NCBI GenBank assembly: GCA_030841035.1
Contig: JAVEDI010000045.1
Location: forward strand, 1-48,117
Source of the DNA: Actinomycetota bacterium
GTDB taxonomy: Bacteria > Actinomycetota > Actinomycetes > JACCUZ01
Direction: 5' to 3'
DNA length: 48,117 nucleotides
Of the stretch, positions 35,716 to 40,099 are shown in pieces. The notes beneath the pieces are model-generated. The model ran no database searches. It saw only the letters and a program-made list of their open reading frames with translations, and was not told where the DNA came from. Both the position numbers and the translations under genes were made by a program. The stretch's first letter is position 1, and each line of letters starts with the position of its first letter.

Positions 35716-38262
35716 TCAGTGCGGCCAGACGTCGCCGTTGCCGAGGCGCCGCGGCGCGGCAGGCGGGGCATCAGCCACCGGCGGCGCGTCTGCTGTCTCG
35801 ACCGCACTCAGGGCCGCCGGCTCGGAGTGCAGCCGCACGGCGTAGGAGGCGAAGTGGTCGCTGAGCCAGTGGGTCATGTCGTCGCGGCGCATCGGCCGCG
35901 CGAGGAGGAACCCCTGCACCAGGTCGCAGTCGAGGTCGCGCAGGATCTTCCAGGTCGACTCGTCCTCGACACCCTCGGCGACGACGCGCAGCCCGAGGTC
36001 GTGACCGAGGTTGATGACGGCCCGAACGATGGCCAGGTCCTCGCTGCTGCCCGTGACGTTGCGCACGAACTCCCGGTCGATCTTGACCTCGTGGACAGGC
36101 AGGTTGCGTAGCCGGGTGAGTGACGAGTAGCCGGTGCCGAAGTCGTCGACGGAGACGCTCAGGCCCAGGTCGACCATCCGCTCCAGGGCCGTCACCGCGC
36201 GGTCGGGGTCGGACACGATCGCGCTCTCGGTGACCTCGAGCTTGAGCAGGCCGGCCGGGAGGTTGGCACGGACCAGCAGCCGCGCGACGACGTCGGCGAG
36301 CTCAGGCTCGAGCAGGTTGCGCATGGAGACGTTGACGGCCATCTGGACCGGCGTCCCGGCGTCCCGCCAGGCGGCGCACTGGCCCACCGCGGTCTCGACC
36401 ACGAAGCGGGTGAGCGACCGGATCAGCCCGGTGTGCTCGGCCAACGGCACGAACTCGTCCGGTGAGACCGAGCCCCACACCGGGTGGTGCCAGCGCAGCA
36501 GCGCCTCGACACCCGTGACGCGCAAGCTGCGGGGGTCGGCCTGCGGCTGGTAGTACAGCTCGAGGCTGCGCTCGTCCAGAGCGCGAGCCAGGTCGCTGAT
36601 CAGCGAGAGACGACGGGCGCTGTAGGGATCGCGCTCGGAGGAGTAGTGCGCGACACCGGCGAGGCGGTGCTTGGCGTCGTACATCGCCACCTCGGCCCGG
36701 CGCATCAGCAGCGCGGCCGAGGAGCCGTCCTGCGGAGCCACGGCGATGCCGACGCTGGCGCTGACGTCGAGGTCGACGTCGCCGAGGTAGAACGGCGTGG
36801 CGAAGTCGCGGCTGATGCGTTGCACCATGCCCTCGACGTGCACGTCGTCGTCACCGAGCAGTACCGCGAACTCGTCGCCACCGAGGCGGGCGACGACGGT
36901 CTCCGCGCGCTCCACCCGGCGCAGCCGGTGACCGACCTGCTCGAGCAGCCGGTCACCCACGTCGTGCCCGAGCGTGTCGTTGACCTCCTTGAACCGGTCG
37001 AGGTCCATCAGCAGCACCGTGGCCGAACCGGTCGCGAGCAGCCGCCGTTCGAGACGTTGCTGGAAGTGCAACCGGTTAGGCAGCCCAGTGAGCGGGTCGT
37101 GCAGGCTGAGGTGCTGGGTCTCTGCCGCGGCGGCCCGGACCCGGTCGACCAGTCCGCTGTTGGCCAGCGCGATGCTCGCGTGGCCGGCGAGGGCCTCGAA
37201 CAGCCGCGCGTCCTCACGGTCGAACGTGCTGACGTCGTCGAGCCGGTCGGCGACGAGCAGGACACCGGTGACCCTGCCCCCGTCGCGCAGCGGGGCCGCC
37301 AGACCGTCCAGATGGCCGCTGCGACGCAACGCCTGGTGCGCGGCGCCGTCCTCACCTCGGGGCAGCAGCAGGACGTTGCCCTCGCACGCGGGGTGCCACC
37401 AGTCCGTCGAGAGGCACAGCTCGTCGCAGAACACCACCTGGACGTGCCGGGCCCGCAGCAGGGTCCGCGCCTCGCGGTTGATCGTCTCGAGCACCGTCTC
37501 GTCGCGGACGGACTCGTCGACGGAGCGGGTGAACTCGTAGAGCAGCTGGAGCCGGCCGTAGCGCAGCCGCTGGATGTGGTAGCCGCGGTAGAGCAGGAAC
37601 GACAGCACGCCGAGGACGGCCAGCAGGGCCAGCGCCGAGGGCTCGCGGCGCAGCAGCAGTGCCGTGACCAGCGCGAGGTCGGTGACGACCGCGGTGCCGA
37701 CGGCGCCGAACGCGAGGTTGACCCGCAGCATCTGCGGGTCGGGCCGTCCCTCGCGCTCCCAGATGACCGCGAACACGGCCAGCGTCGAGATGAGATAGAC
37801 GAGCTCGGTCGTCAGCAGTGCCGCCAGCCAGCCGGCGGGAGCCAGCGGGGTGGCCCGCATGCCGAGCAGGCCGAGCAGCGCGTCGAACAGCCAGATCGCC
37901 ATGGCCGACTGCAGGACCCACAGTGCCGCGTTGAAGCTCACCTTGATCACCGGCGAGCGGTAGAGCAGCGCCAGGGTCAGCGTGACCCCGATCAGGCCCG
38001 CGCCGACGACCTCGTTGCTCGAGGCGAAGATCAGCCCCAGCAGCAGCGGGGCCTCGTTGAAGGAGAGGGAGTGGTTCTCCCGACCGAACGGGAGGTGCAC
38101 GACGAAGCGCTCGGTCAGGGCGAGCAGCGCGGCCAGCACCGGCCACCAGATGTGCGGCGTCAGCTCGGGCAGAACTGGCGCTCGCCACCACAGCGTGGCG
38201 CCTGCGGCGGCGATGGCGCCCGTCGTCAGCCAGACCCTCTGGTCCGGCGTTGGCCGGTTCAC
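35716..38262 (-). CDS. Membrane GAF-GGDEF-EAL cyclic-di-GMP protein
   Basis: An 848-residue protein. Residues 1-230 hold about seven hydrophobic helices (a MASE-type sensor region) ending LLYRGYHIQRLRYG. A GAF-like domain spans about residues 245-375 (ETINREARTLLRARHVQVVF through FEALAGHASIALANSGL). The GGDEF domain (about 385-550) has an intact LGGDEF and FKEVNDTLGHDVGD; the EAL domain (about 560-800) has GVEALLRW, NVSMRNL, EVTESAI, DDFGTGYSSLTRL, VKIDREF and AEGVED. Both enzymatic sites look complete. The C-terminal about 50 residues are an Ala/Pro-rich tail. Start is GTG 38262. It lies 88 bases downstream of the AAGSGWH peptide gene on the same strand, but a terminator-like hairpin separates them. 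Confidence 0.92.
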   Translation of the reverse strand: MNRPTPDQRVWLTTGAIAAAGATLWWRAPVLPELTPHIWWPVLAALLALTERFVVHLPFGRENHSLSFNEAPLLLGLIFASSNEVVGAGLIGVTLTLALLYRSPVIKVSFNAALWVLQSAMAIWLFDALLGLLGMRATPLAPAGWLAALLTTELVYLISTLAVFAVIWEREGRPDPQMLRVNLAFGAVGTAVVTDLALVTALLLRREPSALALLAVLGVLSFLLYRGYHIQRLRYGRLQLLYEFTRSVDESVRDETVLETINREARTLLRARHVQVVFCDELCLSTDWWHPACEGNVLLLPRGEDGAAHQALRRSGHLDGLAAPLRDGGRVTGVLLVADRLDDVSTFDREDARLFEALAGHASIALANSGLVDRVRAAAAETQHLSLHDPLTGLPNRLHFQQRLERRLLATGSATVLLMDLDRFKEVNDTLGHDVGDRLLEQVGHRLRRVERAETVVARLGGDEFAVLLGDDDVHVEGMVQRISRDFATPFYLGDVDLDVSASVGIAVAPQDGSSAALLMRRAEVAMYDAKHRLAGVAHYSSERDPYSARRLSLISDLARALDERSLELYYQPQADPRSLRVTGVEALLRWHHPVWGSVSPDEFVPLAEHTGLIRSLTRFVVETAVGQCAAWRDAGTPVQMAVNVSMRNLLEPELADVVARLLVRANLPAGLLKLEVTESAIVSDPDRAVTALERMVDLGLSVSVDDFGTGYSSLTRLRNLPVHEVKIDREFVRNVTGSSEDLAIVRAVINLGHDLGLRVVAEGVEDESTWKILRDLDCDLVQGFLLARPMRRDDMTHWLSDHFASYAVRLHSEPAALSAVETADAPPVADAPPAAPRRLGNGDVWPH

Positions 38263-38350: not shown

Positions 38351-38572
38351 CTAGCGTGCGGAGACCGCGTGCCAGCCGCTGCCGGCCGCCAGCGTGGTCG
38401 GGGCGGCCGCGTGCCAGCCGCTGCCGGCCGCGGTCACCGAGTGCCAGCCGCTGCCCGCGGCTTTGTGGGTGCCGAGGCCGGACACGCCGCTGACCGCGAA
38501 GGCGAGCAACGCCAGGGCGAGCACGGCGAAGAAGGCGACAAGGGTCCGGGTGGAGGTGCGCACTGCGGTCAT
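38351..38572 (-). CDS. Small secreted or anchored protein with three AAGSGWH repeats
   Basis: A 73-residue protein. Residues about 11-28 (LVAFFAVLALALLAFAVSG) are a strong hydrophobic helix after a basic start (MTAVRTSTRT), so it is a signal peptide or single membrane anchor. The exposed tail has three near-identical heptads, AAGSGWH, at about residues 38, 48 and 62, separated by SVT and AAAPTTL and ending AVSAR. The repeats are preserved at DNA level as well. Start is ATG 38572 with GGAG seven bases upstream. It is divergent from glnA2. No family is recognised; the repeat could be a binding or modification motif, but this is unproven. Confidence 0.7.
   Translation of the reverse strand: MTAVRTSTRTLVAFFAVLALALLAFAVSGVSGLGTHKAAGSGWHSVTAAGSGWHAAAPTTLAAGSGWHAVSAR
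38368..38460 (-). repeat. Three copies of the GTGCCAGCCGCTGCC repeat (AAGSGWH codons)
   Basis: The 15-20 base unit recurs at 38368-38388, 38410-38430 and 38440-38460, 42 and 30 bases apart. The DNA is nearly identical even at third positions, suggesting recent duplication of the unit. Confidence 0.75.
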
Positions 38573-38755
38573 GGTGTTCTCCGGGGGATGAGAGCTACGG
38601 GCGAAAGGGGTGGATGAGTGGCCCTTTCTCTAGAAATCATCGGCAGCCAGGGGCCACGGGAACGCCATGGCGTGCCGCAGAAACGGCAAAGCCTTGGTCA
38701 TCCCTTGCCGGCCGCTGGCGCGTAACCTGCCCGAAACACGGCCCCGGCAGGATCG

Positions 38756-40099
38756 ATGACCATGGACAAGCAGCAGGAGTTCGTGCTCCGCACCCTGGAG
38801 GAGCGGGACATCCGTTTCGTGCGTCTGTGGTTCACCGACGTGCTGGGGTTCCTCAAGTCGGTGGCCATCGCGCCGGCCGAGCTGGAGGGTGCCTTCACCG
38901 AGGGCATCGGCTTCGACGGCTCGGCGATCGAGGGCTTCGCCCGCGTCTACGAGTCGGACATGCTGGCCAAGCCCGACCCCGGCACGTTCCAGGTGCTGCC
39001 CTGGCGCTCCGAGACGCCGGGTAGCGCGCGGATGTTCTGCGACATCCTGATGCCGGACGGCACACCGTCCTACGCCGACCCGCGCCACGTCCTCAAGCGG
39101 ACGCTGGCCAGAGCCGGTGAGCTCGGCTTCGCGTTCTACACGCACCCCGAGATCGAGTTCTTCCTGTTCCGCGACCGCCCCGACCCGGGCCAGGTGCCGG
39201 TGCCGATCGACTCGGGCGGCTACTTCGATCATGCCCCGCACGGCGTCGGTCACGACTTCCGGCGCGACGCGATCACCATGCTCGAGTCGATGGGCATCTC
39301 GGTGGAGTTCAGCCACCACGAGGGCGCTCCGGGCCAGCAGGAGATCGACCTGCGCTACGCCGACGCGCTCTCGACGGCTGACAACGTGATGACGTTCCGG
39401 CTGGTGATGAAGGAGGTGGCGCTGGAGCAGGGCGTCTACGCGTCCTTCATGCCCAAGCCTTTCACCGACCACCCGGGCTCGGGCATGCACACCCACCTCT
39501 CCCTGTTCGAGGGCGAACGCAACGCCTTCTTCGAGGCAGGTGCGCAGTACCAGCTGTCGAAGGTGGGCCGCTCGTTCATCGCGGGTCTGCTGCGCCACTC
39601 CCACGAGATCACCGCGGTCACCAACCAGTGGGTGAACTCCTACAAGCGACTCTCGGGCGGCGGCGAGGCGCCGTCCTACGTCTGCTGGGGGCACAACAAC
39701 CGCTCGGCTCTCGTGCGGGTACCGATGTACAAGCCGCAGAAGGGCGGCTCGACGCGCGTGGAGTTCCGCTCGCCCGACTCGGCGTGCAACCCCTACCTGG
39801 CCTTCGCCGTGACGCTCGCCGCCGGCCTCAAGGGCATCGAGGAGGGCTACGAGCTGCCGGAAGGCGCGGAGGACAACGTCTGGGAGCTCACCGACGCCGA
39901 GCGTCGGGCACTGGGGATCCAGCCGCTGCCGTCCAACCTCAGCGACGCGATCCGGGCCATGGAGGGCAGCGAGCTGGTCGCCGAGACGCTGGGCGAGCAC
40001 GTCTTCGACTTCTTCCTGCGCAACAAGCGGGCGGAGTGGCTGGAGTACCGGCGCCAGGTCACCGCGTTCGAGCTCGACCGCTACCTCCCGGTCCTCTAG
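38756..40099 (+). CDS. glnA2: Type I-alpha glutamine synthetase (GlnA2 type)
   Basis: A 447-residue enzyme joining ammonium to glutamate. The beta-grasp N-terminus (VRLWFTDVLGFLKSVAI) leads to active-site segments GIGFDGSAIEGF, PEIEFFLF, EFSHHEGAPGQQEIDLRY, MPKPFTDHPGSGMHTHLSLF, GSTRVEFRSPDSACNPYLAFA. It is the shorter alpha form without the tyrosine adenylylation loop of the beta form, so GlnE may not act on it. From memory this is the GlnA2 position beside glnE in mycobacteria. Start is ATG 38756 with AGGA upstream; ATG at 38762 is a weaker alternative. It leads the amidotransferase-glnE set by three bases. Confidence 0.93.
   Translation: MTMDKQQEFVLRTLEERDIRFVRLWFTDVLGFLKSVAIAPAELEGAFTEGIGFDGSAIEGFARVYESDMLAKPDPGTFQVLPWRSETPGSARMFCDILMPDGTPSYADPRHVLKRTLARAGELGFAFYTHPEIEFFLFRDRPDPGQVPVPIDSGGYFDHAPHGVGHDFRRDAITMLESMGISVEFSHHEGAPGQQEIDLRYADALSTADNVMTFRLVMKEVALEQGVYASFMPKPFTDHPGSGMHTHLSLFEGERNAFFEAGAQYQLSKVGRSFIAGLLRHSHEITAVTNQWVNSYKRLSGGGEAPSYVCWGHNNRSALVRVPMYKPQKGGSTRVEFRSPDSACNPYLAFAVTLAAGLKGIEEGYELPEGAEDNVWELTDAERRALGIQPLPSNLSDAIRAMEGSELVAETLGEHVFDFFLRNKRAEWLEYRRQVTAFELDRYLPVL

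Follow-up and report, generated by a model that had tools for sequence, protein, structure and literature searches.

The 73-amino-acid (aa) protein encoded at positions 38351 to 38572 on the minus strand of the window, i.e. the whole 48,117-nucleotide stretch of actinobacterial DNA that was analysed, is best read as a tryptophan (Trp)-repeat tail replacing a protease as the partner of a receptor with a predicted S-component fold. With a probability of about one half, it acts by itself as the Trp-repeat partner of the receptor encoded next to it, its repeats engaging the S-component-fold domain to set c-di-GMP output; the partner role would probably be that of an extracellular ligand. Our observations suggest an undescribed ligand-receptor pair made of a Trp-repeat protein and a sensor domain. 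Few membrane-embedded GGDEF-EAL receptors have a known ligand, and here genome context points to a candidate for an entire family of such receptors. In the family of the window this candidate is reduced to 73 aa with three short repeats, which is small enough for synthesis and testing. If true, this reading would add protein or peptide sensing to the roles of the S-component fold, beyond the uptake of vitamins and the sensing of small molecules.

Translation of the open reading frame (ORF) from its ATG start gives MTAVRTSTRTLVAFFAVLALALLAFAVSGVSGLGTHKAAGSGWHSVTAAGSGWHAAAPTTLAAGSGWHAVSAR. The protein has a basic N-terminus (net charge +2), followed by a hydrophobic helix at residues 12 to 30 (38483 to 38539, minus strand), which judged by hydropathy (KD 2.63 over 19 residues) may be a signal peptide or a membrane anchor. 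Its tail holds three AAGSGWH units at residues 38 to 44 (38441 to 38461), 48 to 54 (38411 to 38431) and 62 to 68 (38369 to 38389), all on the minus strand. A ribosome-binding site, GGAG (38579 to 38582, minus strand), lies 6 nucleotides (nt) 5' of the ATG, and the GC3 of the ORF is 0.95. Given the helix, the small protein is probably exported, in line with its first description as a secreted protein. Searches of Pfam and NCBIfam returned no family for it, a plasmid collection gave no match and a viral structure library no useful match.

The window genome (3.95 Mb, from an uncultured actinobacterium) was then compared with seven relatives of its family, whose named records are for the most part metagenome-assembled genomes. 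Six of the seven carried an orthologue of the neighbouring sensor gene (65 to 72% identity), and in all six a small repeat ORF was located directly upstream of it. The initial annotation had stated that a lack of homologues, or a random frame without a ribosome signal in relatives, would speak against its proposal; homologues were found, and a GGAG-like site was present 5' of all seven small ORFs, the window's included. Because syntenic small repeat ORFs occur in the family relatives, the 73-aa ORF is, on sequence evidence, a real gene, and a chance frame is ruled out. The small repeat protein with a hydrophobic helix that had been described is confirmed, and it has a ribosome site. Each small ORF had its own homogeneous unit, namely AGTSWH in G003, PGTGWH in G001, GASWN in G007, GATWN in G005, ASNGWQ in G002 and AASIWN in G004. 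In all of these units small residues precede Trp, and the residue after it is His, Asn or Gln; Trp was kept throughout and His was not.

Two of the 21-nt units in the window ORF have the same sequence, and the only change in the third is a synonymous GCCGCG for GCGGCC, so that the near-identity reported at the DNA level was confirmed. The additional claim of a recent copying of the unit holds in part at best: identical peptides in the relatives use differing codons (Ser in ASNGWQ of G002 is encoded by TCC, TCG, AGC and TCT). Since the codons of identical units differ, it is the peptide of the repeat units that is, on this codon evidence, kept by selection. Tailed subtilases occupy the same place in other families, and the small gene might accordingly be seen as the left-over tail of a lost subtilase, kept without function. 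We consider this very unlikely, since such a relic would decay, whereas seven copies in six genera have kept the frame, the ribosome site, the hydrophobic helix (in 6 of 7) and homogeneous units with synonymous differences.

Units of one protein shared 87% identity, compared with 36% for units from different species (none of 5,000 label shuffles was as extreme). The same combination of units alike within a precursor and divergent between species is found in fungal alpha-factor precursors. A multi-copy pheromone precursor, from which identical short peptides would be released to report cell density to the adjacent sensor, is thus worth weighing, and cleavage into identical peptides had been proposed initially. 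The PhrK model (NF038040) did match the 73-aa protein, but with 14.3 bits against a cut-off of 35 and mostly over the hydrophobic segment (residues 17 to 41). Moreover, the spacers between units differ within and between species, no common processing motif was seen in the small proteins of the family, and in relatives the repeat forms the tail of a large protease. A pheromone precursor is hence unlikely, and the cleavage proposal finds no backing in the spacers.

One counterpart deviated from the common layout. In G001, which belongs to the same genus as the window, the syntenic ORF (L072:4790-4909; MSDTKTPGTGWHLITPGTGWHLITPGTGWHLITPGTGWH) contains four PGTGWH units and a good ribosome site, and the hydrophobic N-terminus is missing. 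This protein may stay unexported, so that either export is not universal or the G001 copy may be impaired. At a second match in the window genome (G000:C20), no small repeat ORF was found. Most of the weak matches were due to chance, and several Trp-rich frames (e.g. L008) were rejected as out-of-frame GC-rich readings. One locus (L074, JAJAYQ010000121.1) stems from a record titled Spirochaetaceae bacterium CAN_BIN15. It shares the synteny of the actinobacterial family and encodes a sensor with 65% identity, and the title is probably wrong.

The small ORF lies between a glnA2-type glutamine synthetase gene (38756 to 40099, plus strand; assigned by Pfam) and a gene for a TM-GAF-GGDEF-EAL protein (35716 to 38262, minus strand), as first annotated. 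The latter protein, identified by Pfam and its orthologues, has 848 aa and a GTG start and is the candidate receptor. Its membrane sensor domain comprises about residues 1 to 240 (37543 to 38262, minus strand), and an AlphaFold2 model of this domain reached a pLDDT of 92.8 and a pTM of 0.85. A Foldseek search with the model returned RibU with a probability of 1.00 and a TMt of 0.63. E-values were only 1.8e-3 and weaker, and the fold call therefore rests on the consistency of the matches. The membrane domain is predicted with high confidence to have the fold of ECF-transporter S-components (RibU, ThiT, BioY, CbiM/NikM), to which it aligned at a TM of about 0.6. Unlike these S-components, it is fused to signalling outputs and has no ECF transporter module beside it in the window, where the neighbours are nadE-type, GGDEF-EAL and glnA2 genes.

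The S-component fold is already known from receptors. As Partipilo and Slotboom (2024, PMC11109136) showed, the 5TMR-LYT receptors, to which BtsS, YpdA and LytS belong, combine it with GGDEF, EAL and kinase outputs, and S-component-fold receptors are known to bind small molecules, e.g. pyruvate. As in that group, the S-component-fold domain studied here is joined to GAF or PAS domains and to GGDEF, EAL or histidine-kinase outputs. However, the two differ in several respects. No Pfam or NCBIfam model covers the membrane domain, and PF07694 (5TMR-LYT) did not match it in Pfam scans. The NXR motif between helices 1 and 2 of 5TMR-LYT is absent, as read directly from residues 27 to 69 of the window sensor, and the domain has conserved residues of its own (R61, K107 and N111 in the numbering of the window protein). 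MASE9 (PF20972) gave no match above its gathering score, with 1 of 14 members reaching an E-value of 0.012. In addition, the window-type domain is paired with a Trp-repeat gene, of which the consulted parts of PMC11109136 make no mention. By its model the membrane domain is of the same fold as 5TMR-LYT; membership of that family is not established.

Using the N-terminal domain of the window sensor as query against 297 genomes of the class, we identified distant membrane-domain relatives (28 to 38% identity) in other families. The DNA beside them contained long frames ending in Trp repeats such as GSTWTGSTWTG, GHTWSGHTWSG, SSRSWSSRSW and GRTWAGRTWAG, and such frames were likewise seen when named genomes were scanned. 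The tailed proteins that were scanned are subtilases (PF00082, E-values of 1e-32 to 1e-47), with the D, H and S of the catalytic triad invariant in the alignment. In contrast, the 73-aa protein of the window has no peptidase S8 domain. The nearest NCBIfam model, mycosin (TIGR03921), scored 128 to 146 bits against a cut-off of 279, and the Trp-repeat tail was covered by none of the searched families in Pfam and NCBIfam. The tail gene was usually directly upstream of the sensor gene and in the same orientation, either overlapping it or no more than a few hundred bases away; exceptions were divergent (L085, L129) or downstream (L086).

The residue following Trp in the subtilase tails is mostly Ser, Thr, Ala, Arg, Asn or Tyr. 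This bears on the initial suggestion that His binds metal, with Trp-His units chelating copper or nickel for sensing. His does follow Trp in three of the seven family members, including the window, and the model of the sensor domain also resembled the metal S-components CbiM/NikM in Foldseek. Yet the other four members have Asn or Gln at this position, and His, being replaced in relatives, cannot be the shared functional residue. The substitution pattern largely refutes metal binding, which we regard as scarcely credible.

Trp spacing is 7 to 14 residues in the small proteins versus 5 in the subtilase tails, and the two may present the repeat differently. The small protein is linked to the tails by position and repeat type only, and it may descend from such a tail or have an origin of its own. 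In an AlphaFold2 model of a tailed subtilase, built from 14 sequences, strands recur along the tail with a regular 5-residue spacing, at low confidence (pLDDT 50 to 58). The 5-residue period is shared with pentapeptide-repeat proteins (PF00805), from which the tails differ by the lack of a Pfam match and by their central Trp; the window protein lacks this period. In one tailed subtilase (L084:3216-4841, plus strand), the 5-residue period and low-confidence strands resembled pentapeptide-repeat helices with Trp at the centre.

The pairing of sensor and Trp repeat was observed across families. We counted distinct sensor loci that are defined by the membrane-domain profile (A4) and lie outside the window's own type, of which 81 were evaluable and 6 could not be judged. 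A Trp-tail neighbour was present at 56 of the 81 evaluable loci and absent at 25. As controls, 20 GGDEF-EAL genes were fetched, three of which carry the membrane domain (L166 weakly, L168 and L170), leaving 17. The only control with a tailed subtilase was L170, which carries a diverged copy of the membrane domain. A stricter count that excluded the control locus L170, as well as L153 and L155, which had been fetched for their tails, gave 53 of 78 sensor loci with a Trp-tail neighbour versus 0 of 17 controls (Fisher p = 1e-7, a value that overstates independence, the loci being kin). Among 30 subtilase loci of the window family, the sensor adjoined three of the four Trp-tailed subtilases (the contig ends at the fourth) and not one of the 26 tail-less ones. 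When the Trp repeat alone was used as query (118 genomes), 34 of 56 matches adjoined a sensor match; among the others are matches at the ends of contigs, proteins that are unrelated and a number of tailed subtilases with no sensor in view. As expected of the proposed Trp-repeat partner family, the window protein adjoins an A4-domain sensor and has at least three homogeneous Trp units in its C-terminal part. At L216 (G000:C22), a distant relative of the membrane domain has an HD-GYP-like domain (HD_5) attached to it, and a Trp-repeat neighbour was absent there.

The outputs attached to the membrane domain beside Trp-tail subtilases are swapped. We found GGDEF-EAL, PAS-HisKA-HATPase and SpoIIE with HATPase_c_2, in addition to an output region without a Pfam match. 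The histidine-kinase output was present at L178, L179, L180 and L189, the SpoIIE phosphatase with HATPase_c_2 at L208, and the output without a Pfam match at L182, L186 and L192, all three of which were scanned. In the window genome itself (L153, G000:C91), a subtilase with the tail ASRSWASRSW precedes a membrane domain-PAS-HisKA-HATPase protein, followed by a response regulator-EAL gene. The membrane domain is the likeliest partner of the Trp repeat, because only this domain is common across the swapped outputs. The presence of the repeat partner goes with this domain and not with glnA2. The proposal that the small protein may be a signal or ligand in the neighbouring pathway is plausible for the GGDEF-EAL protein and is positional only for glnA2, a divergent neighbour whose synteny is kept and which probably lies outside the module. 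Sensors of about 470 to 550 aa with the same membrane domain were also seen beside Trp-tail subtilases (ASSWSASSW, ANSWSANSW) at L182, L185 to L188 and L190 to L193.

In the main rival to the ligand reading, the Trp repeats would hold the protein close to the membrane, by attachment to the envelope (cell wall, glycan or membrane) or by assembling with one another, and the sensor would detect something else, e.g. a small molecule in its S-component pocket or protease products. The low-confidence strand pattern of the modelled tail, of the pentapeptide-repeat-helix kind, speaks for this, as do the small molecules that S-component-fold receptors bind (PMC11109136). Moreover, the type of tail goes mainly with the protease domain (partial Mantel r 0.48) and much less with the sensor (partial r 0.14, p 0.015), which leaves the evidence for direct co-evolution of tail and receptor weak. 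However, a general attachment element would be expected on many secreted proteins, whereas here the Trp repeat is mostly beside one sensor family, and the small protein carries no cargo that such an element could hold in place. We consider attachment possible but doubtful. The ligand reading has against it the missing helix in G001, the sensor loci without a partner and the tail type following the protease.

In the ligand reading, the N-terminal helix would carry the C-terminal part of the small protein across the membrane, either anchored or after cleavage. Outside the membrane, the [small]-[small]-x-Trp-[H/N/Q] units would contact the S-component-fold domain of the TM-GAF-GGDEF-EAL protein, and this contact would raise or lower c-di-GMP output. 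In most other actinobacterial families with the receptor domain, a secreted subtilase would present the repeats as a C-terminal tail, and the receptor might monitor the protease or be under its control. In the family of the window, the protease is absent from the locus and the repeat part alone remains. Somewhat more tentatively, we propose a widespread, hitherto undescribed actinobacterial module in which Trp-repeat polypeptides, in the form of either subtilase tails or stand-alone small proteins, would serve S-component-fold receptors as dedicated extracellular ligands. The outputs of these receptors would be interchangeable (c-di-GMP, histidine kinase, SpoIIE phosphatase), and in the window family the ligand would be cut down to its repeats. 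The repeat system had been called possibly undescribed, and apparently it is so: searches of the open-licence literature yielded no description of the Trp-repeat/sensor pairing, and its novelty is supported within Pfam, NCBIfam and this literature.

Two further kinds of tail were observed. At L242:1-1575 (minus strand), a Trp-repeat tail (SGSRWTGSRWTG) is found on a protein whose visible part is unlike a subtilase, and other secreted proteins may thus also carry such a tail. A subset of tails consists of W-Y-G units (GASWYGASWYG; L178, L208, L210, L211 and L213), and the two scanned sensors beside them (L178 and L208) are of the kinase or SpoIIE type, not GGDEF-EAL.
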